This document shows, piece by piece, positions 1,438 through 22,610 of a DNA stretch of 57,307 bases. The stretch's first letter is position 1, and the number at the start of each line of letters is the position of its first letter. The stretch covers positions 1 through 57,307 of the forward strand of contig JAFGFL010000016.1 in the NCBI GenBank assembly GCA_016931055.1, read 5' to 3'. Source of the DNA: Candidatus Omnitrophota bacterium (GTDB lineage Bacteria > Omnitrophota > Gorgyraeia > Zapsychrales > Zapsychraceae). The notes beneath the pieces are model-generated. The model saw only the letters and a list, made by a program, of their open reading frames with translations, had not been told where the DNA came from and made no database searches. A program made the position numbers and the translations under genes.

Positions 1438-4400
1438 ATGCTTAGGAAAATTAAAGCAACGCGAAGAAAAGACAAAACACGCCTGCTGGCCCCCCCAAAA
1501 AAGCTTTTTCCCATCATTGGTATCGGTGGTTCCGCCGGAGGGCTTGAAGCATTCCAGGAACTGCTTAAAAATATATCGAATAATCCGGGAATGGCGATTG
1601 TATTTATAATGCATTTAGCCCCGGGCCATAAAAGCATGCTGAGGGAACTGCTTGCCAGATTAACAAAAATGTCAGTAAGTGAAATAACCAACGGCATGCC
1701 CCTGGAAGTCAACCATGTTTATGTAATACCACCGGGCGTTGATGTTTCTATCGCCGGCGGAAAACTCGTCCTCAGTAATATGAAAAATGCCGGGTTAAAA
1801 CGCATGCCGATAGACTATTTTTTCCGTTCACTTGCGGAAGCACAAGGGAACAGGGCTATCGGAGTTATCCTTTCCGGAACAGCGACAGACGGGACGCTGG
1901 GAGCAGAGGCCATTAAGGCCGAAGGGGGCATTACTTTTGCTCAGGACGAACAATCCGCTAAATACGCCGGTATGCCGCAAAGCGCGGTTGCCGCCGGATG
2001 TGTGGATTTTGTGCTTTCGCCCAAAAAGATCGCCAGAGAGCTTGAGCGTATAGCAAGACACCCCTTTATATCGCCCGCGGGGGCCGTTAAAACAGATAAG
2101 CCCATCATAACGGAAGATAAGGGGCTGGAAAGTATTTTTGACATATTGCGATCAGGTCACGGCCTGGATTTCACTCATTATAAAGCCTCCACCATTATGA
2201 GGCGCGTATCGCGGCGGATGGTTTTACTGAAATTGGAAAAACTCCAACACTACGCAAAGTTCCTGATAGGAAATAAGGACGAGGCAGAGAGGCTTTATGA
2301 AGACCTGTTGATAAACGTCACCAGCTTTTTCCGCGACGGAAAAGTTTTTCATACATTGAAAAAACTGGTTTTATCGGGAATTCTTAAAAACAAGACAAAA
2401 GGTCAGGAGGTAAGGATATGGGTGCCGGGATGTTCCAGCGGCGAGGAAGCTTATTCTATCGCCATATGCCTTATTGAGCTGATGGAAAACAAAAAAAGCG
2501 AGGTTCCTATCAAGATTTTTGCTACGGATGCAAGCGAAAGCGGTATTCATAAGGCGCACCGGGGTCTCTATGGTGAAAATATAAAAAACGATGTTACCCC
2601 TGAGTGTTTAAAACGGTTTTTCACAAAAGAGGGTCATTCTTATAAGATCTCTAAAAGATTAAGGGAGATGTGTATTATTTCCAAACATAATGTGTTTAGC
2701 GATCCGCCTTTCTCCAATTTAGACCTGATAAGCTGTAGAAACCTGCTGATATACCTGCAGCCGGTTTTGCAGAGGAGTGTATTCTATAAATTTCATTACG
2801 GCTTAAGGCCTGGCGGGTTTCTCTTTTTAGGAAACTCGGAATCCGTAAGCGGTTATTCAAATCTTTTTAAGGCGCTGGACAGAAAGCAGAGAATTTTTGT
2901 AAAGAAATATCTGCCCATAGAGCCCGAACTTGAATCAGGTCAGAAATATTCTCCGCCAAAGAAATTAGAAATTAAGGAAAAGGCCGGTATCAAGAAAGGC
3001 AAAGAAATGGATATTGAAAGCATGATAGAGCGGCTTGTGCAAAGCGTTTACGCTTCTTGCGGGGTGCTGATCGACAGCGATATGGAAGTCGTTTTGTTCC
3101 GCGGGCACACCGGCCGTTTCCTTGAATCAGAGGCCGGCAAACCGAGCCTTAACATATTCAAATTGGTGCGGGAAGGCCTGTGCATGCCTTTGCGGGCGGC
3201 GATATATAAGGCCAGGGGAACAAAACATACGGTAAAAAGAGAAGCCCAGGATGTAAGTTATAACGGCCGCAAGGTGCGGGTTAATATAACCGTTGTCCCT
3301 GCGAAATACGGACCCCTTAAAGAAGAATTCTTTCTGGTGCTTTTTGACGAAATTGGCAGGGCGGCGGGGCTTAAGAATTTGCCAAAAGGGCGCGGCAGGA
3401 GTTTATCCTTAAAAGGAAAATCCGCCCAAAGCGGTGAGTCTATCGATATTCTTCAGAAAGAACTTGCAGAAACAAAAGAATATCTCCAGACGATTATAGA
3501 AGAACATGAGAACGCGCTTGAAGAAGTCAAAACTACCAATGAGGAAATACTCTCAAGCAATGAAGAGCTGCAAAGCATTAACGAGGAGCTGGAAACCGCG
3601 AAGGAGGAACTGCAGTCTTCAAACGAAGAATTAATCACCTCTAACGAGGAACTGCAGAACCGTAATGCAGAGACCTTTCTCTTGAGCAATGACCTGATCA
3701 ATTTACTCGGCAGCATCAATATCCCGGTCATCATGATGGGGACAGACCTTGCGATACGCAGGGTAACTTCCCAGGCGGAAAAGGTGCTGAATGTCATTCC
3801 GTCTGATATCGGCAGGCCGATCAGTAAAATTAAACTCAATGTCGATATTCCGGATTTAGAGAAAACACTTACGGATGTTATGGAGTCCCTTCATCCAAAG
3901 ACATTTGAACTAAAAGATAGAGGAGAAAACTGGTATTCGGTATATATCAGGCCATACCGCACCTTAGATAATAAGATTGACGGCGTGGTTGCGGTCTTTA
4001 TCGACATCACCGAGCGTAAGAAGATAGCGAGGGAATTAGCGCAGGCAAAAGAGCAGCAATACAAGACACTTATTGATAATCTCCCTCAAAAGGTATTCTT
4101 AAAAGACAGGAATTCAGTGTACATATCCTGTAATAAAAATTACGCAAGAGACTTGAAGATCAAACCTAAGGAGATCGCGGGAAAGACAGACCGTGATTTC
4201 TTCCCAACGCCTTTGGCTGAAAAATACAGGGCCGACGATAAGATGGTGATGGAATCCGGGAAAACCAAAAATATAGAAGAGGATTACATCGTAATAGGAA
4301 AATTTCCGGGAGGCTCTCGAAAGGCTATTGTTAACACAGTCAAAGCCCCTGTTTGGGACAAGGCCGGCAACGTTACGGGGCTAGTCGGCATCTTCTGGGA

Positions 4401-5946
4401 TATCACCGAACACAAGCAAGCGGAAGAAGCCCTGCGCGCAAACGAGATGCTAAAGAAACTTAACCAGATAAAATCCGATTTTGTCTCTACCGTCTCTCAT
4501 GAACTGCGCACGCCCTTGACCACGATGAAAGAATTTACGTCTATCATTTTAGATGAAATACCCGGCAAACTTACTAAACAACAAAAAGAATATATGGATA
4601 TTATTGGCGGGAATATTGACCGCCTGGCCCGGTTAATTAATAATCTCTTGGATATTTCTAAGATTGAGTCCGGAAGGCTAGAGCTAAAAAAGGCGCTTGT
4701 AGATATGGCTAATTTAGCCAACGGCGTAATTTCTATATTAAAGCCTGAAGCGCAGGCAAAGCATATTGAATTTAAAACCTTGTTTCCCGCAGCTGCATTA
4801 AATGTATATGCCGACTCTGATAAGATGGTCCAGGTTTTTACGAATTTAATCGGAAACGCGATTAAATTTTCGAAAGAGAATGGGGAAATTACAGTTGAAA
4901 TTAAAGATGCTGCGGAAGAGGTGGTGTGTAGTATTGCTGACACAGGAATAGGCGTTGCGCCAGAGAATCTTGATAAGCTATTTGATAAGTTTCGGCAGAT
5001 TAACCGTGCCGTTGGTGCCGGAGCAAAAGGGACCGGCTTGGGACTAGCCATAAGTAAAGAGTTGATAGAGATGCACAATGGCAGAATTTGGGCCGAATCA
5101 GAACTCAGCAAAGGCAGCAAGTTTATTTTTACCCTGCCCAAGCATAGCAAAAAAAGCATCCTGTTCGAAACAGTAGAGAAGAATATTACGGGAGCCCAAA
5201 AAGAAAATAAGAAATTTTCAATATTTGTTATCCAGTTGGATGATTATTCAGAGTTTGAGGAAGGGCTTGGAAAAAATAGAGCGCAAAAAGTTTTTTTCCC
5301 GATATTGGCGAGCTTTGAAGAGGCTGCGTCCAGCGAAGGTTTTCAAACTATAAGAAGCGAGAGTGAGGTTGTTGTGTTCGCGCAAGTGAACAGACAAGAG
5401 GCATGCGGAATAAGCGCAAGATTAAAGAGGATGATCAAAGAGCATATTTTTGAAATTAACGCGCAACTTAAAAAAGGTTTTTCCTATGGATGCGCCATCT
5501 ATCCCGATGATGCGGATAATGCCAAAGATTTACTGGAGCGGGCCTATAAATCTTGTGTTCAAGAAAGAGAGGCAAGATCAAGGAAGAACATCATGATCGT
5601 TGATGATGAGCCGGAATTGAGAAATGTTTTAAGGAAAATTTTACAGGCAAACGGGTATTCTAATTTTACCGAGGCCGGCGATGGAAAAGAAGCGCTGGAA
5701 AAAATAAAAACCGCCGTCCCTGATTTGTTGATACTTGATTTGAAAATGCCGCTTATGGGTGGTTATGAAGTCATCGGGATGCTTAAGGAAGACGCACAGA
5801 CAAAAGATATGCCAATATTAATCATGTCGGGAGATGCGGCGGAAATTGAGAAGCTGGGGGAATATGTTAAGGCGAAAGCGATACCGTTAGTGGGTAAGCC
5901 ATTCAATACAGAACAGCTTAAGAAGTTGGTCAATTATCTCTTGTGA
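1438..5946 (+). CDS. CheB-CheR-PAS-histidine kinase-degenerate GGDEF-receiver protein
   Basis: A 1502-residue soluble signalling protein. Residues 24-205 are a CheB methylesterase with catalytic Ser32 (GGSAGG), His59 and Asp151. Residues 230-490 are a CheR methyltransferase with the SAM site VPGCSSGEEAYS. A heptad-repeat coil (about 670-745) leads to two PAS-like regions (750-860, 870-995), a HisKA domain with His1021 (SHELRTP) and an ATPase with DTGIG. Residues 1258-1375 look like a GGDEF domain whose signature is replaced by SESEV, so it should be inactive. A C-terminal receiver carries Asp1434 and Lys1487. The CheB-CheR-PAS-kinase order is a known architecture; the appended dead GGDEF plus REC is unusual. 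No CheA or CheW is nearby. AGGAGG at 1426-1431 fixes the start. Confidence 0.92.
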   Translation: MLRKIKATRRKDKTRLLAPPKKLFPIIGIGGSAGGLEAFQELLKNISNNPGMAIVFIMHLAPGHKSMLRELLARLTKMSVSEITNGMPLEVNHVYVIPPGVDVSIAGGKLVLSNMKNAGLKRMPIDYFFRSLAEAQGNRAIGVILSGTATDGTLGAEAIKAEGGITFAQDEQSAKYAGMPQSAVAAGCVDFVLSPKKIARELERIARHPFISPAGAVKTDKPIITEDKGLESIFDILRSGHGLDFTHYKASTIMRRVSRRMVLLKLEKLQHYAKFLIGNKDEAERLYEDLLINVTSFFRDGKVFHTLKKLVLSGILKNKTKGQEVRIWVPGCSSGEEAYSIAICLIELMENKKSEVPIKIFATDASESGIHKAHRGLYGENIKNDVTPECLKRFFTKEGHSYKISKRLREMCIISKHNVFSDPPFSNLDLISCRNLLIYLQPVLQRSVFYKFHYGLRPGGFLFLGNSESVSGYSNLFKALDRKQRIFVKKYLPIEPELESGQKYSPPKKLEIKEKAGIKKGKEMDIESMIERLVQSVYASCGVLIDSDMEVVLFRGHTGRFLESEAGKPSLNIFKLVREGLCMPLRAAIYKARGTKHTVKREAQDVSYNGRKVRVNITVVPAKYGPLKEEFFLVLFDEIGRAAGLKNLPKGRGRSLSLKGKSAQSGESIDILQKELAETKEYLQTIIEEHENALEEVKTTNEEILSSNEELQSINEELETAKEELQSSNEELITSNEELQNRNAETFLLSNDLINLLGSINIPVIMMGTDLAIRRVTSQAEKVLNVIPSDIGRPISKIKLNVDIPDLEKTLTDVMESLHPKTFELKDRGENWYSVYIRPYRTLDNKIDGVVAVFIDITERKKIARELAQAKEQQYKTLIDNLPQKVFLKDRNSVYISCNKNYARDLKIKPKEIAGKTDRDFFPTPLAEKYRADDKMVMESGKTKNIEEDYIVIGKFPGGSRKAIVNTVKAPVWDKAGNVTGLVGIFWDITEHKQAEEALRANEMLKKLNQIKSDFVSTVSHELRTPLTTMKEFTSIILDEIPGKLTKQQKEYMDIIGGNIDRLARLINNLLDISKIESGRLELKKALVDMANLANGVISILKPEAQAKHIEFKTLFPAAALNVYADSDKMVQVFTNLIGNAIKFSKENGEITVEIKDAAEEVVCSIADTGIGVAPENLDKLFDKFRQINRAVGAGAKGTGLGLAISKELIEMHNGRIWAESELSKGSKFIFTLPKHSKKSILFETVEKNITGAQKENKKFSIFVIQLDDYSEFEEGLGKNRAQKVFFPILASFEEAASSEGFQTIRSESEVVVFAQVNRQEACGISARLKRMIKEHIFEINAQLKKGFSYGCAIYPDDADNAKDLLERAYKSCVQEREARSRKNIMIVDDEPELRNVLRKILQANGYSNFTEAGDGKEALEKIKTAVPDLLILDLKMPLMGGYEVIGMLKEDAQTKDMPILIMSGDAAEIEKLGEYVKAKAIPLVGKPFNTEQLKKLVNYLL

Positions 5947-7250: not shown

Positions 7251-7340
7251 GGGACACACGACGTAACTCGAATTAATTAAGGATCGGTCGTGTGTCCCAA
7301 TTTTTTCTCCCGCCAGGTGAACATGATCAAAATCCGCGCC
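7251..7340. repeat. Dispersed repeat, copy B, with perfect 12-bp hairpin
   Basis: GGGACACACGAC (7251-7262) is the exact reverse complement of GTCGTGTGTCCC (7287-7298). The segment CTCCCGCCAGGTGAAC to CCGCGCC (7307-7340) matches 110-143. Copy A contains the same parts rearranged. Likely a short non-autonomous REP-like element lying between the receiver series and the TonB receptor gene. Confidence 0.65.
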
Positions 7341-7459
7341 CGGCACCGATTATTTCTCACCTTTTTTATCCCCCGCGGTTGTTTCTGTTGCTTTTGCAAT
7401 TGAAATATAGTAATATGAAATCCCTTTTTCACACATCAACATCATATTGTGGAAAGGAA

Positions 7460-9394
7460 ATGGTTGTGAGCGCAAAGAATGTGATGATGGCTTTGTTGTT
7501 GCTTTCTGCGTTAAGCGGAATTACATTCGTTTATGCGGAGGAGAGGGCCCCTGTTTCCCTAACCCTGTCGGAAGATGCGGGTATAGAGGGCTATCAGACA
7601 CCATTGTATCGTGAGTTGGAAACGGTCGTTGTGACGGCCAGGCGGGTGCCGTCGGATATCAAACAAACGGCCGAAACGATCACGGTCTATACGGAAGAAG
7701 ACATCGGCAGATGGCCTGACCGGGACCTGGGGGAGGCCCTCTCGTATATTCCGGCGGTTGACGTCCAGTTAAACGGCCAATTCGGCCAGGCAACAGCGTT
7801 ATCCGTCAACGGCTCCAGCGCCCGCCAGGTTTTGCTGATGGTCGACGGAATCCCTTTCAACACGCAACTCTCCGGCCAGGCCAACCCCGCACAAATACCC
7901 TTGGAACATATCCAGCGCGTCGAAGTGATCAAAGGTGCCTCCTCAAGCGCGTGGGGTTCCGCTTTGGGCGGCGTTGTGAATGTCATTACCAAAGATGCCG
8001 GGGAAACGGAGGTGCCAACGGGGAATTTCACGAGCTCCTTCGCGGAGTTCGGCACAACAAAAAACAGCCTTGATTTGGCTGGGAAAATAAAAGGGCTGGG
8101 ATATTTACTCACCGGCAGTTATTTCAAGACCGACGGTGCCCAATACATTTCGGACGCCGAAGAGAAGCAATTCTTCGGCAAGCTCCAGCTTCCTTTAGGC
8201 GACGCCGCCAAACTGCTGGGGGAATTCGGCTACAGCGGGACCGATGTTCGCTATGCGCTTTCAACCAGCACGTTTTGCATATCCCAGCCTCAGATCGCCC
8301 GTTACGGAAAAATGTTGATCGATGTCCAACAGGACGGTTACCAATGGAATGCCGCTTATAAATATAACGACCAGGATATCACGACGGACAGCACGTTTGT
8401 CTCAAGCGGGGCCCTCTTTTCCTCAACGGACAGCGAAAATGTCTATCACGGCATCAGCTTAAACGGCAGCGTGGATGTTTTGGAAAGCAGCGAGCTGGTC
8501 ATGGGCGCCGATTTCGACTGGCACCGGCTGAAATCGAACCAGTACCTGGATAAAGCCGAAAGCATCAACATGCAGGCTCCGTACGTGAATTATACCGCTC
8601 ATTTGGGGCCCTGGGACGTCATCACGGGCCTGCGTTATGACCATAACCGGCACTTCGGGTCGCAAGTCAGCCCGAGCGTCGGCAGCGTCTACCACTTTGG
8701 CGACGCGCAAAAGACGCTGGTCAGGGCCAGGGTCTCCCGCGCGTTTAACGCGCCGCCTTTGCTGAAGGTGTATAACGACGGGGTTGCCTTCGGCTTCACC
8801 ATCTTGCCCAACCCCGATCTTAAGGCGGAACGCGCGACGATGGTTGAGCTCGGGCTGCAGACGACTCCCTTTGAGCCCCTGAAGATGGATTTAAGCGCCT
8901 ACCGCGCCGACGTCAAAGACGGGATTGCCGATGTGATGGTCAGCCCCCTGACCACACAGACGCAGAACATCCGGAAGTTCCGCCGGCAGGGGGGCCAGCT
9001 GCTTTTCAGTTATGACGCGGGTGAACACGTAACGCTCTACGGCAGCGGCGCGTTTAATGACGCCGAGAACCGTGCGACAGGGGAAACGGTCCGCGACGCG
9101 GGAATCGCCCGGCAGAAGTTCACCTTCGGCGGCCGGTATAAAAATGAGCGCGGTTTTGGGCTCGATGTATCGGGGTATTACATCCGCTGGAGTTCGGATC
9201 CCTCTTCCCGGCCCAATGACCGCAAGCCGATTTTCGATTTGAAGCTTGTCCGGGAATTCAAAGGCATCCGGGAGGCCTTCGACGCGGAAATCTTCCTCAA
9301 TGTCCGCAACCTGACCAACAGCAAATATTGGTCCAACATTTCCTTCCCCTTGCCCAGGCGCTATTTCGAAGGCGGCTTTTCCATGACGTTTTGA
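7460..9394 (+). CDS. TonB-dependent outer-membrane receptor (BtuB/Cir-like)
   Basis: About 644 residues from the ATG at 7460, chosen because AAAGGA precedes it and the protein then begins with a clean signal peptide ending VYAEE. A frame opens further upstream but would put 56 extra residues before the signal. ETVVVTARR resembles a TonB box. The plug domain (about 45-170) contains VLLMVDGIPFN and IQRVEVIKGASSSAWGS, both typical. The rest is beta-barrel sequence ending in an aromatic residue. Such receptors import metal chelates, cobalamin or peptides using TonB energy. It stands upstream of a peptide-type binding protein and a RiPP maturase, so import of the cluster's product is a reasonable inference. 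Confidence 0.9.
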   Translation: MVVSAKNVMMALLLLSALSGITFVYAEERAPVSLTLSEDAGIEGYQTPLYRELETVVVTARRVPSDIKQTAETITVYTEEDIGRWPDRDLGEALSYIPAVDVQLNGQFGQATALSVNGSSARQVLLMVDGIPFNTQLSGQANPAQIPLEHIQRVEVIKGASSSAWGSALGGVVNVITKDAGETEVPTGNFTSSFAEFGTTKNSLDLAGKIKGLGYLLTGSYFKTDGAQYISDAEEKQFFGKLQLPLGDAAKLLGEFGYSGTDVRYALSTSTFCISQPQIARYGKMLIDVQQDGYQWNAAYKYNDQDITTDSTFVSSGALFSSTDSENVYHGISLNGSVDVLESSELVMGADFDWHRLKSNQYLDKAESINMQAPYVNYTAHLGPWDVITGLRYDHNRHFGSQVSPSVGSVYHFGDAQKTLVRARVSRAFNAPPLLKVYNDGVAFGFTILPNPDLKAERATMVELGLQTTPFEPLKMDLSAYRADVKDGIADVMVSPLTTQTQNIRKFRRQGGQLLFSYDAGEHVTLYGSGAFNDAENRATGETVRDAGIARQKFTFGGRYKNERGFGLDVSGYYIRWSSDPSSRPNDRKPIFDLKLVREFKGIREAFDAEIFLNVRNLTNSKYWSNISFPLPRRYFEGGFSMTF

Positions 9395-9556: not shown

Positions 9557-11236
9557 ATGCCATTTACAACAAAATCCCTAATTGCCTTGATAATGGTTGC
9601 CGTGATCACAACCCCCTATCCTGCGGAGGCCGAACAGAAATCCCCACCGAAGAACAGAATTTACCCCGAACAAAAGACGCTTAACGAAAACCGCCCTGCC
9701 AGCCGCACGCACCCCTACGGCGGGACCCTGGTGTGGGGGGACACTCATCAGCCAACGATCATAAATCCTATCCTTACGACAACAAGCGCTTCTGCTGTAT
9801 TAGTGGATCTCATCTTTGATTCTCTGGTTCGAATCGACAGTAACGGAAAAATTGTTCCAGGATTGGCCAAATCATGGGATATTTCCAAAGACGGACTAGT
9901 TTATACGTTTTATTTGCAAGAAGGAGTGTTGTTTCACGATGGTGTAGAGTTAACAGCAGAAGATGTTAAATTCACTTATGAACAAATTGCCAATCCGAAG
10001 AACAATTCTCCCTTTCGTTCTCACTTCGAATTGGCCGAGAGGTTTGAGGTTGTGGACAAATATATCTTTCAGATAGTTTTAAAGGAATCGTTTCCGCCGC
10101 TTTTGTATAAATTAGATAGAGAAGAGATCATTCCCAAACATATTTTGGAAGGAACAGATATAAACGAAACGACCTTTAATTATCATCCTATAGGCACTGG
10201 TTCATTTAAGTTTAAGGATTGGAATAAGGAAACTAATCAAATTGAACTGGAAGCCAATCTTCACTATTTTGAAGGGAAACCGTATTTAGATAAATTCATT
10301 GCGAAGATTTATTCTGATAATTCGCAACTATGGGCGGCTTTTATGCGCCGTGAAGTGGATTTAATGTTCTTTATTAATCGGGAAGATTATTCGATTATTG
10401 AACGTGATCCGGCATTCAGGGCTTATGCCGTGGCCGGCAGTATGTATTACGCGATTGTTTACAATCTGGACGACCCTGTCTGGCATGACCGGGAGCTCAG
10501 GCAGGCCATAGCTCTTGGGCTCAATATCGAGCAAATTATGAAAGATTTGCCGGGTGTTGACGGGATAAAGGCAACAGGACCGTTTCACCCGGATTCTCCA
10601 GGGTATAATCAGGAAGTTAAACCGTTTGAATTTGACCCTGTTAAAGCCAGGATGATGTTGATGCACCGCGGCTGGCTGGATATGCCGCAGGACGCGCGCG
10701 GCCGGGAAAACAGCGTGCGCAGGAAAAACGGCCGGGAACTGGAACTGCGGATGCTGGTTGACGAGCGGAATGACACCTACAAAAGGATGGCCCGGATCAT
10801 CCGTCAACAGCTCGCGGAAATAGGGATTAAGGCGGTCATTCTGCTTTATAACGATGAAAACGAATTGACGCAGGAATATTTTAATCAAAACAAACCACAG
10901 GCCTGGTTGCGGCTATTTCAGGGATTTGGCCCTGACCCCTATGAAGCTGCGGGAAGCTGGTACGGATTATCAAGTCAATTTGGTAATTTATGGGCTTATA
11001 GAAATAGACAAGTCGACGAACTTTTTGAGTCGGGAATGATGAGCGTCGATCATGATAAACGGTCAGAGATTTATAAAAAAATCCACAAGTTAATCTATGA
11101 GGATCAGCCGGCTTGTTTCCTTTTTTACCCGGCCGGCTATTTTGCTGTGAATTCGGATTTTAAAAATACGGATGAATATTTCAGCTTGTATATGCCGAAC
11201 TATATGATGAAGGATTGGTATATATCAAAGAATTGA
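9557..11236 (+). CDS. Family-5 extracellular solute-binding protein (peptide/nickel type)
   Basis: A 559-residue exported protein with a signal peptide ending PAEAEQ. It matches the SBP_bac_5 layout: GGTLVWG near the N-terminus, a SWDISKDGLVYTFYLQEGVLFHDG-type region (about 110-135) with the family's conserved FHDG and LTAEDVKFTYE, and PIGTGSFKF in the middle. Such proteins bind oligopeptides, nickel chelates or opines in the periplasm and usually feed an ABC importer, but no permease or ATPase for import is nearby. It sits between the TonB receptor and the Cys-Cys peptide gene. Methanobactin clusters are known to pair a TonB receptor with a binding protein of this family, which makes an uptake role plausible. 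Base composition shifts from AT-rich to GC-rich around 10640-10790. Confidence 0.88.
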   Translation: MPFTTKSLIALIMVAVITTPYPAEAEQKSPPKNRIYPEQKTLNENRPASRTHPYGGTLVWGDTHQPTIINPILTTTSASAVLVDLIFDSLVRIDSNGKIVPGLAKSWDISKDGLVYTFYLQEGVLFHDGVELTAEDVKFTYEQIANPKNNSPFRSHFELAERFEVVDKYIFQIVLKESFPPLLYKLDREEIIPKHILEGTDINETTFNYHPIGTGSFKFKDWNKETNQIELEANLHYFEGKPYLDKFIAKIYSDNSQLWAAFMRREVDLMFFINREDYSIIERDPAFRAYAVAGSMYYAIVYNLDDPVWHDRELRQAIALGLNIEQIMKDLPGVDGIKATGPFHPDSPGYNQEVKPFEFDPVKARMMLMHRGWLDMPQDARGRENSVRRKNGRELELRMLVDERNDTYKRMARIIRQQLAEIGIKAVILLYNDENELTQEYFNQNKPQAWLRLFQGFGPDPYEAAGSWYGLSSQFGNLWAYRNRQVDELFESGMMSVDHDKRSEIYKKIHKLIYEDQPACFLFYPAGYFAVNSDFKNTDEYFSLYMPNYMMKDWYISKN

Positions 11237-11326
11237 GTGATATGCGGATAAAGAGTCAATCCAGCAGGCATTTTTACTCTGAAAGTTCCGGGTGGGGAAA
11301 TGCTGTGCTGTGGAAAGGAGGAAAAA

Positions 11327-11434
11327 ATGGAAGTTATCAAAGAGGGAACAGAAATTGTTCATGAAATATCGGTATTAGGCTGCTGCTGGCCGCCAGGGAC
11401 AGTGAGCTGGACAAATCCCGAGCCGGAAGAATAA
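11327..11434 (+). CDS. Candidate RiPP precursor peptide with Cys-Cys core
   Basis: A 35-codon gene with a strong AAAGGAGG site seven bases or so before its ATG. The N-terminal half is a plausible leader (MEVIKEGTEIVHEI, acidic and amphipathic). After a Gly comes the putative core with CCWPPG, then a second Trp and a Glu/Pro-rich tail. It lies 91 bases after the binding-protein gene and 143 bases before a radical-SAM/SPASM peptide maturase and an ABC exporter, the canonical RiPP context. The two adjacent cysteines, two tryptophans and the Pro-Pro are candidate modification sites, but the chemistry cannot be deduced. I do not recognise a named RiPP class. Evidence is the ribosome site, the position and the composition. 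Confidence 0.72.
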   Translation: MEVIKEGTEIVHEISVLGCCWPPGTVSWTNPEPEE

Positions 11435-11477
11435 AATGCTGTTAGAGCGATTTTTCTAACAAATCCGGTTAACAGTT

Positions 11478-11527
11478 GACAGGACGGCTGTGGCGGAAGA
11501 CAACTCTTCCGTCACGGCCGTCTTGTC
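11478..11527 (+). terminator. 23-bp hairpin between precursor and maturase genes
   Basis: The arm 11478-11500 pairs with 11505-11527 over 23 positions with only G-U wobbles, closed by a CAAC tetraloop. A weaker stem (TGTTAGA with TCTAACA, near 11440-11461) lies upstream. The downstream sequence is only moderately T-rich, so this could be a partial terminator or an RNA-stability hairpin. Either would give many precursor transcripts per maturase transcript, as is common in RiPP operons. Confidence 0.7.
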
Positions 11528-11547
11528 ATTCTTAATTAAAGAAGAAA

Positions 11548-11577: not shown

Positions 11578-12957
11578 ATGCGGCTTTCCAACCACACGAT
11601 TATCGTAAGCCACTACCCCCGGCCCGGGGAACATCTTCTTTTCAGCACGCGCACGCAGGCTATGGTCAAGATCGATCAAGACTTAAGGGATATTCTGGGC
11701 TCTCTCGAAAGATACGGCGATGATCTCTCCCTGCAGCGTGCGGAAGACTTGAGGCGGCTTCACACAATGGGCATCCTTGTGCAGAATGAAGAGGAAGAGC
11801 AGGCGAAATTAAAAAATTTTTTTCACCAGCTGAAATACGGATATAATCGGGCTGTTTTTCCCGTCACGATCCTGACAACGGCGTCCTGTAATTTCAAGTG
11901 CGTTTATTGTTTTGAAGAGAGCTCGCGCGAGGGCGGCAATCTGGATTTTGAGACGCGGGAGCTTGTGATCGGCTGGCTGAAAAGGCGGGTCGAACGGCTC
12001 GGATACAAAGGGCTGGTGCTGAACTATTACGGAGGGGAACCGCTTTTATATCCGCAGGCGATCGAACATATCTCCTCGGAGATGAAACAGTGGTGCCGGT
12101 CAAAGGGGCTCAACTTTGCCGTCACGCTCCAGACGAACGGGTACCTGATGACGCCTGAAGCGGTCGCGAAATTGACGGCCTTAGGATTAAAAAGGGTCCG
12201 GGTGAGCGTGGACGGCGCCAGGGAACGGCATGACCGTAACCGGCCTTTGCGCGGCGGCGGGCCGACGTTTGACCGCATTATCAGGAATATCCAGGACTGC
12301 GCCGACAAGCTCGAAATATGCGTTTCCATGGGCTACGAAAAAGATGATATCGGGCCGATCGCGGCATTGGTCGAATATCTGGATGAGTTGGGAGTCCTGC
12401 ACAAATTGGGGGAATTCATTTGTTCTCCGATCATCCCTTCGCTGGGGCCGAAAGGCCGTCCCCAAGCGATCCGGGGGTCCGAATGCATGTTCAATCAGGA
12501 AGATCATATGATGGCAGCGGCCGTGGGGAAAATCAAAGAACTCATGGACCGCCATCACCTGAAATATACCTGCAACATGTCCGTCAACGCGTGCGGGTTG
12601 GTCCGTGAAAACAGCGGCGTGACGATCGACCAGCACGGGCGCCTCTTTAGGTGCAACTCGCTCTTGGGCCATCCGGAATTCGCCGTCGGGGACGTGCGCC
12701 ATGACGAATTCAATGAGACGCAAAAGGAGTTCAGGGACCTCGATGCGTGGAAGCAGTGCCCGGTCGATTGCACGTACCTGCCGATGTGCAGCGGCGGGTG
12801 CCGCCTGCTGTCCTTTGTCGGCGGCAACAAGAATTTTAAGACCGTCTCCTGCAAGGAGCTTTACTTAAATGAGATGGCGCCGCAGTTTATTAAACGGCAG
12901 TATGAACAGACGCAAGCGCAAAAAAAGGAGCTCGAACAAGAAAATATTATGGTATGA
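11578..12957 (+). CDS. Radical-SAM/SPASM peptide maturase
   Basis: A 459-residue protein. Residues 1-80 form a small N-terminal region of the type seen in RiPP radical-SAM enzymes (possible leader-binding part). The radical-SAM barrel starts near residue 95 with the [4Fe-4S] triad Cys104-x3-Cys108-x2-Cys111 (CNFKCVYC), followed by YGGEP (151-155). A C-terminal SPASM domain holds seven cysteines (339, 359, 394, 398, 404, 408, 425), including CSGGC, enough for auxiliary clusters. Family members install thioether, C-C or epimerised residues in ribosomal peptides. Immediate neighbours are the Cys-Cys peptide and an exporter. The ATG at 11578 has no clear Shine-Dalgarno sequence, so translation may be weak or the start may differ slightly. 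Confidence 0.9.
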   Translation: MRLSNHTIIVSHYPRPGEHLLFSTRTQAMVKIDQDLRDILGSLERYGDDLSLQRAEDLRRLHTMGILVQNEEEEQAKLKNFFHQLKYGYNRAVFPVTILTTASCNFKCVYCFEESSREGGNLDFETRELVIGWLKRRVERLGYKGLVLNYYGGEPLLYPQAIEHISSEMKQWCRSKGLNFAVTLQTNGYLMTPEAVAKLTALGLKRVRVSVDGARERHDRNRPLRGGGPTFDRIIRNIQDCADKLEICVSMGYEKDDIGPIAALVEYLDELGVLHKLGEFICSPIIPSLGPKGRPQAIRGSECMFNQEDHMMAAAVGKIKELMDRHHLKYTCNMSVNACGLVRENSGVTIDQHGRLFRCNSLLGHPEFAVGDVRHDEFNETQKEFRDLDAWKQCPVDCTYLPMCSGGCRLLSFVGGNKNFKTVSCKELYLNEMAPQFIKRQYEQTQAQKKELEQENIMV

Positions 12958-13014: not shown

Positions 13015-14775
13015 GTGCCTGCCCAAAAAACTTCCATTACGTTTTGTTCGCTTCTCTCACCTTACCGCGCCAGGATCGCGGCGGTCCTTTTTTTGATGTT
13101 GTCCGCGAACCTGCTGGCGCTCGTCCTCCCGTGGGCGATCAAAATCATTATTGACGATATCCTCACCGGCAAAGACGCGGATTCTCTGAACCTCATGATG
13201 CCGGCGTTGGTGGCGATCCTCGGCCTGCGCTCCGTTTTCGGCTTCTTGCGGGCATACTTAAGCGGCAGTACCGGCGAGAGGATCGTTTGTGATTTGCGGC
13301 AGGAGATCTGCGATCATATCCCGAGGTTATCGCTGACGAGCATTAATAAAATCTCCCCCGCCCAGATATTGACCAGGATCACGCAGGATGTCAACAGCCT
13401 GCGCCGTTTTCTTTTCGGGGATGCCGTTGAGTTTATCTACGCGTTTCTCAATATCGGATTCATTGCGGCCATCCTTTCCTTTGTGAACGTAAAACTGACG
13501 GTCCTTTCTTTATCCGCATTACCCCTGTTTGCCGTTATCTATTTCCTGTTAATTCCGGAACTGAAGAACAGACACAGCCGGCTGCGGGACATGCACGGGG
13601 TTTTAAGTTCCAGGTTCAGCGAGGTTTTAAACGGGATACGGATGGTGCGGTCTTTCGCCGGGAACGCGCGCGAGAGACAACTCTTCGAGACCAAACAGCG
13701 CGATATTCTAAGCGTGGCGACCCGGACGCACTATCTTCATTCATGGCTGTGGGTCGGCATCGAGTTTTTTACGTCGCTGGGAATAATCGGGATTTTGTGG
13801 ATCGGCGGGAGCGATGTGATGGCGGGCCGGATGACGGCGGGGGAACTGGTCGCGTTTTACACGTACCTGGGGATGTTGTTTTCTCCGGTCATCCGCATGG
13901 TCGTCATCAACGCATCCTACCAAGAGGCCCTGGCCGCGCTGAACCGTATTAATGATGTGATGAATATTGATGACGAAGTCCCCGAGGCGGAACATTCCGC
14001 CGGTCCGGGCAAGATCGAAGGGCGCGTTGAATTCAAAAAAGTATCTTTTCATTACACGGCCGGAGACCCCGTTCTTAAAGACATCCATTTTGCGGCCGAG
14101 TCCGGAGAAACCATCGGTATTGTGGGGGCAAGCGGGGCGGGAAAGACGACGCTCGTCAGCCTTTTGCTGCGGTTTTTTGACCCTGACGAAGGGGAAATCC
14201 TCATTGACGGAAAGAAGTTAAAGGATCTCGGCCTTGACGCGTACCGCCGCCAGATCGCGGTCGTATTGCAGGATGATTTTCTTTTCAGCGGGACCGTTGA
14301 AGACAACATCAAGTACGGCAAACCGCAGGCGTCCCGGGAAGACATCGTTCAGGCGGCCAGGATCGCCCAGGCCCATCCGTTTATTTCGGAACTCGCCGAC
14401 GGTTATAAAACGGAAGTCGGCGAACGGGGATTCAACCTTTCCTGCGGGCAAAGGCAGAGAATCGCGATTGCCCGGGCCGTGATCAAGAACCCTTCCCTTC
14501 TGATTCTGGATGAGGCGACTTCAAGCGTCGATGCGTTGACGGAAAACGACATTCAGAGGTCCATCCGGCGGTTCATGAAGGGGAAAACGGTCTTCCTTGT
14601 GGCCCACCGCTTTTCAACGGTCATGGAAAGCGACAAGATCCTTGTGTTGGATAAGGGGAGAATTGTCGAAGCCGGCGGCCACAATTATCTTTTGAACAAA
14701 CGGGGATTCTATAGTAGCCTATATCTCGAACAGTTTAAAGACGAGGACAGGGCTTCCCTGTCTCAAAGGCAGTGA
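13015..14775 (+). CDS. ABC exporter (fused membrane and ATPase domains)
   Basis: A 586-residue half-transporter of the MsbA/LmrA type. Residues 15-300 hold about six membrane helices; the ATPase follows with Walker A GASGAGKTT (about 372-380), Walker B LLILDEATSSVD and the switch His in VAHRFST. The signature motif reads LSCGQ rather than LSGGQ, Cys477 replacing a glycine. There is no N-terminal C39 peptidase, so leader removal must be done by something else. The start is GTG with GGAG five bases upstream. It lies 57 bases after the maturase and ends shortly before a sensor kinase. Likely cargo: the modified peptide. Confidence 0.9.
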   Translation: MPAQKTSITFCSLLSPYRARIAAVLFLMLSANLLALVLPWAIKIIIDDILTGKDADSLNLMMPALVAILGLRSVFGFLRAYLSGSTGERIVCDLRQEICDHIPRLSLTSINKISPAQILTRITQDVNSLRRFLFGDAVEFIYAFLNIGFIAAILSFVNVKLTVLSLSALPLFAVIYFLLIPELKNRHSRLRDMHGVLSSRFSEVLNGIRMVRSFAGNARERQLFETKQRDILSVATRTHYLHSWLWVGIEFFTSLGIIGILWIGGSDVMAGRMTAGELVAFYTYLGMLFSPVIRMVVINASYQEALAALNRINDVMNIDDEVPEAEHSAGPGKIEGRVEFKKVSFHYTAGDPVLKDIHFAAESGETIGIVGASGAGKTTLVSLLLRFFDPDEGEILIDGKKLKDLGLDAYRRQIAVVLQDDFLFSGTVEDNIKYGKPQASREDIVQAARIAQAHPFISELADGYKTEVGERGFNLSCGQRQRIAIARAVIKNPSLLILDEATSSVDALTENDIQRSIRRFMKGKTVFLVAHRFSTVMESDKILVLDKGRIVEAGGHNYLLNKRGFYSSLYLEQFKDEDRASLSQRQ

Positions 14776-14794: not shown

Positions 14795-16651
14795 ATGAAG
14801 TTACCTTCATCAGGCATCAGGCGCATCCTTCCCAGGCGGATCTGGCAGCAGATCTTCTTCCTGTTAGTTTTTTTTGCCATCATCCCGCTCGGCGCTCTCG
14901 GTTTTTTCTTATTAAATGCCAGCCAAGGCGCGATCAAGACGGCCATTCTCCGGGGCCATAAAGAAATTGCCGTTCATACGACCGGCGAAATTCGGGAACA
15001 TGTCAAAGGCGCCAGGGAAACTCTGCTTGTGACGGCGTCCATTTTAGGGACCTTGCACGCCGATCCCTGGCGGCAGGAAACTGTTGTCGTCGAACTTTCG
15101 TTAAAAAATCCGGCCTTTCAGCGGATCTCTTCACTCAATTTGAAAGGTGAAGAAATCGCGACTTCACAGCTCGGGACGGAATTGCGCGACAGGTCGCGTG
15201 AGCAGGCCTTCCGGAAAGCGGTCCTGGGCGAATCGTATCTGTCCGAAGTGAAAATATCGGACAACCGTATCCCTTTTCTAACGCTCGCTGAACCCATAAG
15301 GCAGTTCGGGAAGGTCCAGGGGGTCCTGATCGCTGATTTGAATGTCAGAAACATATGGGACACGGTGGACGGCATTCAGGTCGGCCGGCTTGGAAAAGCC
15401 TATCTGATCAATCAGCAGGGGCGGATCATTGCGCACCATGACAAAAAGAAAGTGCTGAAGAACGCGGGCTTGACACAGCCCCAGGTCATGCATGATATTT
15501 TGTCGGGACAGGCGGGGAATCTTGAGGAAATCGGCGAGCGGGGGGAATCATGGCTTGTTTCTTACGCGCCGGTTGGGAAGCTGAATTGGGGCTTGATCAT
15601 CGCGCGGCCCAAAACAGAGGCCTTTGCTTTTTTAAGAGAGATGAACGCGCGGTCGCTGATCGTTATTGCTTTGAGCCTTCTGGCGGCTCTTCTGATCAGC
15701 CTGATCCTGACGCGTTATATGAGCCGGCCGATGAATGATATGATCCAAGGCACGCAGCGGGTTTCCAGAGGGGATTTTTCTCATTTCTTTCAAGTGCACG
15801 GCAAAAGCGAAATCGATAAACTGTTATTTTCGTTCAACCGGATGATCCGTAAATTGCGCAAGGCGCAAGAGGATGAAAAATTAGCCGTGATCGGCAAAGC
15901 CGCCACCGCCATAGCCCATGAACTGAAAAATTCGCTCCAGCTGATAGACACCTTTATCAAGCTGTTGCCCCAGCGGCAGGGGGATAAACAATTTATCAAG
16001 GAGCTCTCGGATACGATCCCCAGGGAATTAGACTCCTGGAACGCGTCATTAAAGAACATGATGACCTACTCGAGAGATGCCGGGTTTCCCGTCAAAGAAA
16101 TTGACGCTAATGAGATTGTCAGAGAAATAGCGCTGTTGACGAAATTCAAGGCCCGGCAATCGGATATTCGTCTGGAAGTTGCGCTGGAAGACATCCCTCT
16201 ATGGGTTATGGGGAATCAGGAGAAGTTAAAACAGGTCCTGCTGAATATCGTGACCAATGCTTTGGAGGCAACTCCGCAGGGCGGCCAGATCGTTCTGCGC
16301 TCCAGGTTATCCGGCGGCTTCGGTTCCAAGTCCAAGGAGCCTTGTTTTGCGGAAATAGAGATCATAAACACAGGAGAGGGGATCGAACGAAATCAATTGG
16401 ACAAAATCTTTGAACCGTTTTATACAACCAAAACAGGCGGGTTAGGGCTGGGACTGTCCATCAGCAAAGAGATCATGGACCGCCACCATGGAAAGATCGA
16501 AGTGGTGAGCATCAAAAATGAAACGACCTCATTTATTGTGCGTATCCCGGCCGTGAGTACCGTTTTCCAGAGAAATGCCCCGGGGCATAGCCGGGGGCCG
16601 AAGGCCATCGAAAAGACCTCGACCTCCGGCCCATTTTCGTCTTTGTCTTGA
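14795..16651 (+). CDS. Membrane sensor histidine kinase (Cache-HAMP-kinase)
   Basis: A 618-residue protein. A first membrane helix (about 20-42) is followed by a periplasmic double-Cache-like sensor (about 43-280; GKAYLINQQGRIIAH is typical), a second helix (about 288-310), HAMP, and a kinase core with His375 in AHELKNS and the ATPase motifs NIVTNALEA, GEGIERN and GLGLGLS. It begins 19 bases after the exporter gene and is followed by an AraC-type response regulator. By position it should sense an extracellular or periplasmic signal linked to the peptide cluster. A Pro/Ser-rich tail after the ATPase (about 595-618) looks like extension into unrelated sequence. Confidence 0.9.
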   Translation: MKLPSSGIRRILPRRIWQQIFFLLVFFAIIPLGALGFFLLNASQGAIKTAILRGHKEIAVHTTGEIREHVKGARETLLVTASILGTLHADPWRQETVVVELSLKNPAFQRISSLNLKGEEIATSQLGTELRDRSREQAFRKAVLGESYLSEVKISDNRIPFLTLAEPIRQFGKVQGVLIADLNVRNIWDTVDGIQVGRLGKAYLINQQGRIIAHHDKKKVLKNAGLTQPQVMHDILSGQAGNLEEIGERGESWLVSYAPVGKLNWGLIIARPKTEAFAFLREMNARSLIVIALSLLAALLISLILTRYMSRPMNDMIQGTQRVSRGDFSHFFQVHGKSEIDKLLFSFNRMIRKLRKAQEDEKLAVIGKAATAIAHELKNSLQLIDTFIKLLPQRQGDKQFIKELSDTIPRELDSWNASLKNMMTYSRDAGFPVKEIDANEIVREIALLTKFKARQSDIRLEVALEDIPLWVMGNQEKLKQVLLNIVTNALEATPQGGQIVLRSRLSGGFGSKSKEPCFAEIEIINTGEGIERNQLDKIFEPFYTTKTGGLGLGLSISKEIMDRHHGKIEVVSIKNETTSFIVRIPAVSTVFQRNAPGHSRGPKAIEKTSTSGPFSSLS

Positions 16652-16711: not shown

Positions 16712-16771
16712 CCCATTAAAACGGGTTATGTCAGAATAGCGGATATGACTCAACAATCTGCCGAGGAAAAT

Positions 16772-17512
16772 ATGATTTCAGAGAAAATTGTTGTTATCGA
16801 TGACGATCCGCGGATTGTTAAAAGCATCCGGTTGGCCTTTCCCGAGTATGAGTTTATGGATTTCAGCAACGGGGAAGATGCCTTGGATTATTTAAGGAAA
16901 CCCAACAACATCAATGTGGTCTTACTGGATTTTATGATGCCTAAAATGGACGGGATCAGCGTCCTGTCAAGGATAAAAAAACACATGAATAATATCGGGG
17001 TTATCCTCATGACGGGATACGGCTCCAAGGACATTATTCTTGACGCGTTGAGAAATCATGCCGATGATTTTATCGAAAAGCCGATTCAAATGCCTGAACT
17101 CAAGGACAAGCTGCGCTTTCTTATAAAGGAAAGGCTGTATGCCCAGAATATAAGAAATGATAAACACGACCGAATGGGACGCATTAAGCGTTTTATTGAG
17201 CGCAATTGCAGCAATGTCAATCTTGATTATATCGCCAATGAGCTGTGTTTGAGCCCGAGATATGTGAGCCGTTTCTTTAACCGCCATAATGACGTGAGCT
17301 ACCGCGGTTTTAGGCTTCAAATGAAGATGAACCGGGCAAAAAAGCTCCTTGCCGAAACCTGCCTTGATGTCTGTGAAATTGCCATTGAATTAGGGTATCA
17401 GAACCCCGAATCCTTCATGCGCATCTTTAAACGAATGACCAAAATGACCCCGACCCAGTACAGAAAGAAAAACGGCAGCAAGAGGGTCAGGAAATCGTGT
17501 CAATCAGGGTAA
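16772..17512 (+). CDS. Response regulator with AraC-type DNA-binding domain
   Basis: About 246 residues from the ATG at 16772, preferred because GAGG lies five bases upstream and the receiver begins at once; an ATG at 16745 would add nine residues. The REC domain has VIDDDP, phospho-acceptor Asp53 (LLDFMMP), Thr in MTGYG and Lys in EKPIQ. A linker leads to an AraC/XylS double helix-turn-helix (about 136-235) containing YIANELCLSPRYVSRFF and the family's ELGYQNPESFMRIFKR region. Partner of the kinase upstream; a transcription activator of the peptide cluster is a natural inference. Candidate targets are the 13-bp dyads at 11548 and 12986. Confidence 0.9.
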   Translation: MISEKIVVIDDDPRIVKSIRLAFPEYEFMDFSNGEDALDYLRKPNNINVVLLDFMMPKMDGISVLSRIKKHMNNIGVILMTGYGSKDIILDALRNHADDFIEKPIQMPELKDKLRFLIKERLYAQNIRNDKHDRMGRIKRFIERNCSNVNLDYIANELCLSPRYVSRFFNRHNDVSYRGFRLQMKMNRAKKLLAETCLDVCEIAIELGYQNPESFMRIFKRMTKMTPTQYRKKNGSKRVRKSCQSG

Positions 17513-17536: not shown

Positions 17537-17917
17537 ATGGACCAAAAAGTTTTGATTGTCGACGGACATCCGGTTTATGCGCAAAGAGTCATAACGTTTC
17601 TTCAGGGACTCATGTTCACGGATATTCATTTGGCCAAAACAGGGAAACAGGGAATGGATGACGCTCGGGACAAAAAACCTGATTTAGTGATCTTGAGTTC
17701 CGTGCTTCCGGACATGGACAGCTCTTTAGTCTGCAGGGAGATCCACGCGTTGACAAAAGGAGCGTCAAAAATCATTGTTCAGATCGGATTGTTCACGGAA
17801 GCGGAGACCGTTAACAAATTTCATGACCATGGCGCCAGTGCCGTTTTGATGCGTAAAGAAAAAGATCTGCAGCCTTTACAGAAGGCCATCGAAAGACTGC
17901 TTTTAAGTGAAGTGTAA
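17537..17917 (+). CDS. Degenerate receiver without phospho-acceptor Asp
   Basis: A 126-residue REC-fold protein. The acidic pair is reduced to VDGHP, the phospho-acceptor is replaced by Ser54 (VILSSVLPDMD, where a normal receiver has ILD), and the KP pair is replaced by RKEKD. It should not be phosphorylated in the usual way. It follows the AraC-type regulator by 24 bases and probably belongs to the same operon. Such pseudo-receivers can bind small molecules or dimerise constitutively; what this one does is unknown. Confidence 0.8.
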   Translation: MDQKVLIVDGHPVYAQRVITFLQGLMFTDIHLAKTGKQGMDDARDKKPDLVILSSVLPDMDSSLVCREIHALTKGASKIIVQIGLFTEAETVNKFHDHGASAVLMRKEKDLQPLQKAIERLLLSEV

Positions 17918-18442: not shown

Positions 18443-20410
18443 ATGAAACGGGATTTTATTGTCACTGTACTTATTGTGGGTGCGGTGAGCATGACCTTTG
18501 TCCCTAAAGTTTCTTCCGCCGACGATGATGGGACTCACGGATTTGAGGCCATGTTGTTCGAGGAAGTTCCTGTTGTTGTGATCTCTGCTATGGGGCGGGA
18601 ACAAAAACAGCAGGATGTCTCGCAGCCGATGACCGTCCTCACCCAGGAAGACATCCGGCGTTCCGGCGCGAAATCCCTAAGCCAGTTGTTTTTAAGGGTG
18701 CCGGGGATGCAGGTCCGTTCCGATAACGGCTATCATAATTATGTCAGCGTCCGCGGCGAGGCCGGGACCCTGACGAATAATCTGCTTGTTCTTGTTGACG
18801 GCGCGGTCGTTTTTAATCCGGCGTTTAACGGCACGCGCTGGCACGCGATTCCCGTGACTCTCGATGAGATCGAGCGCGTCGAAATTATCCGCGGTCCCGG
18901 AGGCGTGCTGTACGCCTCCAACGCCGTTTTAGGTGTCGTTAATATCATCACCAAGTCTTCACGGGCAAAGGAGAAAAACAGCGTTGAGGCCAAAGGAGGA
19001 AGCCTTACCTATAACGGAGAAGCCTTCGGTGTGAACCATCAGTTCAAAGAGGAAAAATGGGGCGTCCGAGGCTACGGACAGCATGATAAACAATTCGGCT
19101 GGGATGATCAGCATGGGGTAAAAGCGCATCAGCGTTTGGAACGGTACTTGTTCGGGGTGCGTTCGGATTATCAAATCAACGACCAGGGACAGGTGAGCTT
19201 TTCGGCGCGCGGCAGCGAAGTGACCTCGTTTCCGAATATTGTGCTTACCGCCATCAAGACACATGCCAGTACGTTTCTGGGCAACCTTGACCTGAATTAT
19301 AAGTTCAGTGACTTCTATGATATGTCTCTTAAAAACAATTTTACTTATCATATCGCCTCGATTCTCGGACTTAATGATGAAGACACGTATACCAATGATG
19401 TGACCATGCAAAACAATTTTACTTACGACCTTATGGGGGATCACGTGACCTCGCTTGGGACCGAGTACCGGAATACGCGCGTCATAACAACGCCTGATCT
19501 CGTGAGAAACACAGACTATACTCATAACACGACATCGTTCTTCCTGAACGATGAATACAAACCATCGGAGAATTGGGTTTTTACCGCGGGCGTTCGCGCC
19601 GACAAACCTTCGTCCCTGAAGAACAATGACCCGAAATTGGACGCCTGGCTGCTTTCGGAACGGGTTTCGGGGATTTACAAGTTTGACGAACATCACAGCG
19701 TTTCCGCCTCGGTGACGAGTGAATACCGTTTTCCGTCTTATAACGCGGAAGAGGAACTGTATTGGGAATTCTTTCCGGGATTCGCCATCGAAGGAAACAT
19801 TAATCTGGAACCGGAAAAGTTGTGGAATTACGATCTCGGATATCACGGGCTTTTTCTCGAAGATAAACTCAATGTCAACCTCGCCGCCTATTTCTATACG
19901 CTTGAAGACGTGATCGTTTGCGATATATTCGGCCCTCAATTCATTTATCGTAACCACGGCGAAATCGACGGTTATGGCGTGGAACTGGATAGCCGGTATC
20001 ATATTAACAATCGATGGAGCGTCTACGGGGATTATTCGTATATCTTGCTTTCCGATGACAAAATCAATACACCCACCCCCTACACGGCGCTTCAGGGAAA
20101 AACAACCAATCTCAGCCGCCATATGATCGGCTCCGGCGCGCGCTACACGGCCGGTCCCTGGGAGGCGGATTTTTACGTCAAATATTTCAGTGGATTGCGC
20201 GCGGCCGATTTCTTTGGGGCTGAAGGCGTGCACATTGACGGTTACTGGAAGCCCGCGTTTCGGGCCGCGTACTCCTTTAAACTGGCAGGGAAATACGACA
20301 CGACCACGGAGCTGGTCGTCAATGACTTTTTCAACAGCAACGTCTATGAAACCGTTTCCCGTTATGAACGTGAAGCCCAGGTTTTTCTTGGGGTCAAGGT
20401 CTTGTTCTAA
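18443..20410 (+). CDS. TonB-dependent receptor, paralogue 1
   Basis: A 655-residue outer-membrane receptor with signal peptide ending VSSADD and AGGAG before the ATG. The plug has the hallmark EDIRRSGAKSL, VLVDGAVVF and IERVEIIRGPGGVLY (about 65-165). The barrel follows and ends VLF. The next gene is a paralogue with the same N-terminal pattern (FEEVP or FAEIP, then GREQKQQ or GRQQQQS), so the pair arose by duplication. Substrate unknown. Both are linked to a periplasmic binding protein and a sensor kinase rather than to a visible importer. Confidence 0.92.
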   Translation: MKRDFIVTVLIVGAVSMTFVPKVSSADDDGTHGFEAMLFEEVPVVVISAMGREQKQQDVSQPMTVLTQEDIRRSGAKSLSQLFLRVPGMQVRSDNGYHNYVSVRGEAGTLTNNLLVLVDGAVVFNPAFNGTRWHAIPVTLDEIERVEIIRGPGGVLYASNAVLGVVNIITKSSRAKEKNSVEAKGGSLTYNGEAFGVNHQFKEEKWGVRGYGQHDKQFGWDDQHGVKAHQRLERYLFGVRSDYQINDQGQVSFSARGSEVTSFPNIVLTAIKTHASTFLGNLDLNYKFSDFYDMSLKNNFTYHIASILGLNDEDTYTNDVTMQNNFTYDLMGDHVTSLGTEYRNTRVITTPDLVRNTDYTHNTTSFFLNDEYKPSENWVFTAGVRADKPSSLKNNDPKLDAWLLSERVSGIYKFDEHHSVSASVTSEYRFPSYNAEEELYWEFFPGFAIEGNINLEPEKLWNYDLGYHGLFLEDKLNVNLAAYFYTLEDVIVCDIFGPQFIYRNHGEIDGYGVELDSRYHINNRWSVYGDYSYILLSDDKINTPTPYTALQGKTTNLSRHMIGSGARYTAGPWEADFYVKYFSGLRAADFFGAEGVHIDGYWKPAFRAAYSFKLAGKYDTTTELVVNDFFNSNVYETVSRYEREAQVFLGVKVLF

Positions 20411-20523
20411 AAGGTTCATGACAAAAGGGTACTAACGTAAAAGGAAGGATGGCCGTGAAGATCCATGCCATAAATTTGTTCAGCCCCACACAATAATTGC
20501 GTGAGAAGGAATGTTTTGATACG

Positions 20524-20545
20524 CGATGTTATTAGAAACATCGCT
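20524..20545. other. Perfect 8-bp hairpin between the receptor genes
   Basis: GCGATGTT pairs with AACATCGC across ATTAGA. No T-run follows, so it is more likely a processing or stability hairpin than a terminator. Confidence 0.35.
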
Positions 20546-20606
20546 ATAAGTAGGAATAGGGGAAATCCGGCACTCAACCAAGCAATCATACAAACAGAGG
20601 TCGCAT

Positions 20607-22547: not shown

Positions 22548-22610
22548 AGGATAGATCATGGCCACAGGCTATATCCAATGTTAATGCGTACCATATCGAG
22601 GAGAGTCATA

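Follow-up and report, generated by a model that had tools for sequence, protein, structure and literature searches.

A Cys-Cys precursor peptide related to geopeptides in Omnitrophota, with an operon that suggests its secretion, recapture and sensing

A short unannotated open reading frame in the genome of an uncultured Candidatus Omnitrophota bacterium, located at positions 11327–11434 of the 57,307-nucleotide stretch of DNA analysed here (the window), is a real gene under protein-level selection. The original prediction, that this frame is a RiPP precursor adjoining a radical SAM/SPASM maturase, finds strong support in conservation, in the selection on its codons and in the surrounding operon. 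The conserved operon suggests a secreted peptide that is taken back and sensed by the cell, and with modest confidence we favour the view that the gene encodes the precursor of a geopeptide-like RiPP in a closed loop of synthesis, export, recapture and sensing. The operon-wide context of receptor, binding protein and kinase, which was absent from the original prediction, is more informative in this respect than the peptide alone.

The precursor gene and its conservation

The precursor gene (11327..11434, forward strand) comes after a binding-protein gene that ends at 11236 and is followed by the radical SAM/SPASM gene, which begins at 11578. Its translation is MEVIKEGTEIVHEISVLGCCWPPGTVSWTNPEPEE, 35 amino acids in length, in which the leader comprises approximately residues 1–18 and the core begins at Cys19. 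A Shine-Dalgarno sequence is present as predicted, AAAGGAGG at 11314–11321 on the same strand, 5 bases ahead of the ATG. The start was assigned to 11327 because in most relatives a start codon, preceded by a ribosome site of its own, occupies the same position; a second in-frame ATG at 11300, giving the N-terminal extension MLCCGKEEK, was rejected as it has no backing from relatives.

Maturase orthologues were collected from 13 genomes, the window's own included, among 190 near relatives, and from 11 further genomes in a phylum-wide draw of 384, giving a total of 24. A CC peptide is encoded immediately 5′ of the orthologous maturase in all 24 of these Omnitrophota genomes, and an interrupted frame beside an intact maturase was seen at no locus examined. 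One genome among the near relatives (G025, loci L020 and L113) was left out of this count and set aside as a different system, with a maturase of 27% identity and without the CC peptide, the receptor or the solute-binding protein (SBP).

Scanning the 190 genomes for the CCWPPG codons returned 25 matches. Thirteen are short leader-bearing frames, 12 of them adjoining the maturase and one (in G005) at the end of a contig, following the same binding-protein gene, so that no leader-bearing copy was found outside the operon in the genomes scanned. The other 12 matches are unrelated frames that lack a leader and were rejected as chance occurrences. Extra copies of the peptide were not found in the window's own genome.

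The core codons (11381..11398, forward strand) encode CC[WFYM]P in 22 of the 24 loci and exactly CCWPPG in 12. The variants are CCMPPG, CCWPPM, CCFPTG, CCYPPG, CCYPTG, CCFPAG (twice), CCFPMG, CCWPAG and CCFPVG, and the two most distant loci carry CCGFDV and CCVSDI. The adjacent Cys pair is invariant across loci, which bears out that element of the core as first described (adjacent Cys, Pro-Pro and two Trp), whereas the second Trp is unconserved in relatives. In a comparison of 22 loci, synonymous sites of the core codons are near saturation (pS 0.81), against a pN of 0.15; in the other two reading frames of the same DNA, pN equals or exceeds pS. Between the close pair G022 and G005, which belong to one genus, dN/dS is 0.23, and the 60 bases upstream are unrelated except for the ribosome site. 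The codon-substitution analysis that had been suggested as a check indicates protein-level selection. As expected of a RiPP precursor, the frame is short, conserved, co-inherited with a SPASM maturase and under such selection.

Two further features ascribed to the peptide did not extend to its relatives. Acidity is not a shared trait, as net charge ranges from −8 to +3. The suggestion that the Glu/Pro tail is a follower peptide was rejected, since tails are unconserved: they vary in sequence as well as in length and charge, and those of families f9 and f46 are basic.

A 24-bp hairpin lies in the intergenic region between precursor and maturase (11477..11528, forward strand); the fold of this region has an energy of −61 kcal/mol and a z-score of −8.7. 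A hairpin occurs at the equivalent place in nearly all relatives, with unrelated stem sequences; this retention of position suggests a partial terminator that would yield more precursor than enzyme, and the element is likely to be either such a terminator or an mRNA-stabilising structure. Families f9, f46 and f51 share the loop GCGGCCGAC on top of altered stems. This loop is found at loci L174, L175, L176, L177, L178 and L179, and in the form GCGGCCGGC at L181, in each case between the CC peptide and the maturase, and the stems below it change with compensation (CCUGG/CCAGG, CUUG/CAAG). The conserved-loop hairpin is possibly a regulatory RNA element in its own right. No Rfam match was obtained in the window or in relatives, conserved-loop hairpins included.

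The maturase and its kinship with geopeptides

The gene at 11578..12957 (forward strand) encodes a radical SAM/SPASM peptide maturase with an N-terminal RRE-like domain. The radical SAM cysteines 104, 108 and 111 and the SPASM cysteines 339, 359, 398, 404, 408 and 425 are invariant in 34 maturase sequences, providing both the CxxxCxxC motif and the SPASM cluster ligands of this enzyme class. Its AlphaFold model (pLDDT 89.7) begins with three strands followed by helices, resembling an RRE domain, and a Foldseek search with the model returned CteB (5why/5wgg) as top match over the full length, including the N-terminal domain. Because CteB makes thioethers in SCIFF and likewise carries an RRE at its N-terminus, the modelled enzyme would probably form a thioether at the CC core. 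The fold of the enzyme is also what points towards a ranthipeptide or sactipeptide, in which a Cys sulphur is bonded to a beta/gamma or alpha carbon. CteB, a ranthipeptide/SCIFF maturase, shares with the window enzyme the entire arrangement of RRE-like, radical SAM and SPASM domains at a sequence identity of 18–19%, and differs in its substrate, which contains many spaced Cys in place of one CC pair.

The precursor had at first not been matched to a named RiPP class. Formally this stands, as it scores 7.3 bits against the geopeptide model TIGR04229 (cut-off 30), and the maturase scores 258 bits against the corresponding NCBIfam model TIGR04280 (cut-off 400), where Nitrospirota geopeptide maturases reach 460–625. 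Two sister precursors also fall below the TIGR04229 cut-off, at 20.4 and 18.6 bits, as does the peptide of locus L027, which lies beside an above-cut-off Nitrospirota maturase. Kinship is nevertheless evident in leader, CC core and maturase. The CC precursors carry the leader motif [M]EIIxKG, and leaders of this type are also found in precursors beside Nitrospirota TIGR04280 maturases, for instance MVKEEIEVLDGGIDLTVVGPMGACCGAALIPIK (L138). The geopeptide trait of an IIxKG-like leader followed by vicinal Cys is present in the window peptide. Both families consist of a short precursor with an I-I/V-x-x-K-G-like leader and a vicinal Cys core next to a SPASM maturase of orthologous type; the geopeptide core reads CCxGA and that of the window family CC[WFYM]PxG. 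A tree of the maturases separates the CC[WFYM]P group of Omnitrophota from the geopeptide clade (support 98/95 versus 100/100). Receptor clades correspond to peptide type, the receptors of CC[WFYM]P operons forming one clade (98/97) and those of geopeptide loci another. The window precursor is therefore a relative of the geopeptides that falls outside the family under the curated cut-offs.

The surroundings of the two families are also comparable. In Nitrospirota geopeptide loci, a TonB receptor adjoins the CC peptide. The counterparts of the window operon's SBP_bac_5 protein and dCache kinase are, in most of these loci, a binding protein of the PF04392 type and a different kind of kinase. As the receptor is kept and the other two components are mostly exchanged, the set of receptor, binding protein and kinase recurs with different parts.

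A third group, also from Nitrospirota (L166, L168, L169, L171 and L172), has a SPASM maturase followed by the peptide and then by an SBP_bac_5 protein and a dCache kinase; its peptides, encoded downstream of the maturase, are 22–25 amino acids long and have a leader with the same recurring motif, MKIIKKG, and only one Cys, close to the C-terminus (MKIIKKGEKKVKSTPVHCTFLIG, L171). Some Nitrospirota geopeptide precursors (L126, L128, L141, L142 and L143) combine long Lys/Ala-rich, histone-H1-like N-terminal repeats (KKAAKKKATKKK) with a short CC core. A search of 284 genomes around G190 with TIGR04280 at E ≤ 1e-60 gave no match, which is not evidence of absence in Geobacter.

The operon and its possible function

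Upstream of the precursor lie a TonB-dependent outer-membrane receptor (7292..9394; Pfam Plug and TonB barrel), whose true start is probably further in, ahead of the signal peptide, and a periplasmic solute-binding protein of the peptide/nickel/heme type (9557..11236; Pfam SBP_bac_5, 266 bits) with a predicted Sec signal peptide. The maturase is followed by an ABC exporter lacking a C39 peptidase domain (13015..14775), a histidine kinase with a periplasmic dCache_1 sensor domain (14795..16651), a response regulator with an AraC-type DNA-binding domain (16745..17512) and a stand-alone receiver domain protein (17537..17917), the last three assigned by Pfam; all these genes are on the forward strand. 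The order of receptor, SBP, peptide and maturase is kept in 20 of the 21 loci with sufficient contig, the exception being G793, where the receptor is on the opposite strand, and the kinase is present in 21/21 loci whose contig extends that far. The exporter usually comes between maturase and kinase, being adjacent in 18 of 24 loci; for five of the other six, searches elsewhere in the genome found only ABC proteins of 32–38% identity. The AraC-type regulator follows the kinase in most loci and is swapped for a different 215-aa regulator in several, and the receiver protein is kept in a subset. In families f11, f57 and f63, most of the operon is retained at 25–35% protein identity.

In the proposed mechanism, the maturase would bind the EIIxKG leader with its N-terminal RRE-like domain and cross-link the Cys-Cys-aromatic-Pro core, through a thioether or in another way. 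Once the leader has been cleaved off, by a protease for which no candidate was identified, the ABC transporter would export the product. A dedicated TonB receptor would return it, alone or with a metal, across the outer membrane, after which the SBP_bac_5 protein could capture it in the periplasm and present it to the Cache kinase; kinase and response regulator together may then adjust expression. Such a loop would resemble the binding-protein and kinase pair LuxP/LuxQ, with the TonB receptor as an outer gate. More specifically, and only tentatively, we propose a Gram-negative autoinducer system in which a radical SAM-modified Cys-Cys peptide is exported, returned through its own TonB receptor and read by a periplasmic binding protein and a Cache kinase, the Nitrospirota geopeptides being a parallel version with another binding protein and kinase.

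The surroundings of the operon were also surveyed. Unusually many response regulators, receiver-only proteins and histidine kinases are encoded around it, at 1438–5946 and over much of 1–35000. A second set at 18443–25570, which includes neither a peptide nor a radical SAM gene, combines two TonB-dependent receptors with a binding protein of the PF04392 type and a kinase of the sCache/PAS type; as binding proteins and kinases of these types adjoin geopeptides in Nitrospirota, it might sense a peptide produced by others. Outside the phylum, a Zixibacteria contig (L025, VGJU01000003.1) has an SBP_bac_5 gene, a CC frame (MKLVVVKKCAKK...RCC...), a SPASM maturase and a dCache-type kinase in order. 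It was set aside as a supporting locus, as the SBP and maturase genes flanking the CC frame carry apparent assembly frameshifts.

The main rival to a sensing loop is a metallophore, and the gene set fits both readings. Metallophore systems such as that of methanobactin comprise a TonB receptor, a NikA/CntA-related binding protein, an exporter and a thiol-rich small peptide, and the locus contains the same set. The modified peptide, with its invariant Cys pair, would here be a secreted chelator (of copper, nickel or zinc, for example), the receptor and SBP would import the complex, and the kinase would report metal status or the arrival of the complex. The SBP matches the nickel and staphylopine-metal models NikA (171 bits) and CntA (142 bits), and SBP_bac_5 proteins bind metal complexes and heme as well; its best solved relative, however, is the oligopeptide-binding protein AppA. 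Furthermore, among the loci compared, the conserved operon includes no metal transporter or metalloregulator, and no permease gene lies beside the SBP at any locus. Searches with OppB_N and OppC_N found one permease set in most genomes, irrespective of the presence of the operon, so uptake may occur through an Opp/Dpp-type permease encoded elsewhere in most operon-bearing genomes. In four of them (G905, which is 98% complete, G865, G919 and G793), neither OppB_N nor an above-cut-off OppC_N permease was detected that could complete uptake. This pattern tends to favour sensing rather than uptake. We regard a metallophore as the less likely of the two readings.

A redox cofactor or other small molecule excised from the peptide, comparable to PQQ (PqqA/PqqE, imported by the TonB receptor PqqU) or mycofactocin, is improbable. 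Both are made with SPASM maturases, the core contains an aromatic residue, and a PQQ receptor exists and appears among the solved relatives of the window receptor (9c4o). However, W, F, Y and M all occur at the position after the Cys pair, a variation that a fixed cofactor chemistry would not allow, and the conserved operon includes neither a dehydrogenase nor an additional tailoring enzyme. An antibacterial peptide accompanied by a cognate sensing and self-protection module seems, if anything, less probable still: ABC exporters and two-component systems are common in bacteriocin clusters and cores differ between families, but no immunity gene was recognised, a TonB receptor and an SBP are atypical of producers, and the core, instead of being diversified, is strongly conserved from family to family. 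Finally, a regulatory leader frame acting as an attenuator of the maturase gene, which would yield no product and to which the strong intergenic hairpin might point, is highly improbable, being largely refuted at the sequence level by an amino-acid core conserved amid free synonymous change and by the homology of its leader motif to Nitrospirota radical SAM-associated peptides, some of them encoded downstream of the maturase.

Significance and comparison with known systems

Geopeptides are so far known only as model names in a curated database, NCBIfam, and no relevant paper on geopeptide function, TIGR04280/TIGR04229 or CCWPPG was found in the literature searched (subscription papers lay outside its scope). 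Within the libraries and literature searched, both the CC[WFYM]P family and its association with a receptor, a binding protein and a kinase appear new. They add a precursor family from a mostly uncultured phylum, and the conserved receptor, binding protein and kinase provide a first testable idea of what geopeptides may do, namely to act as peptide signals that cross two membranes or to capture metal in combination with sensing.

Three known systems share parts of the sensing loop that we favour. LuxP/LuxQ pairs a periplasmic binding protein of the sugar-binding type with a sensor kinase. It is a functional analogy for an SBP whose possible signalling partner is a kinase with a Cache/PAS-like sensor in the periplasm, in an operon without a permease; its ligand is AI-2 rather than a peptide, and it has no TonB receptor. 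Methanobactin is likewise a Cys-containing RiPP with an exporter and a TonB receptor, but it is made by the iron enzymes MbnB/MbnC and not by a SPASM radical SAM protein. The Itf cluster of Bacteroides thetaiotaomicron (ItfA-F) brings together a RiPP precursor, a SPASM-type radical SAM enzyme, an ABC exporter and a TonB-dependent transporter, as does the window operon, and differs in having a YcaO protein, a C39 peptidase-ABC transporter and a precursor ending in Ile-Thr-Phe (PMC11002830). A binding protein and a kinase are not described there (PMC11002830), whereas the window operon has both.
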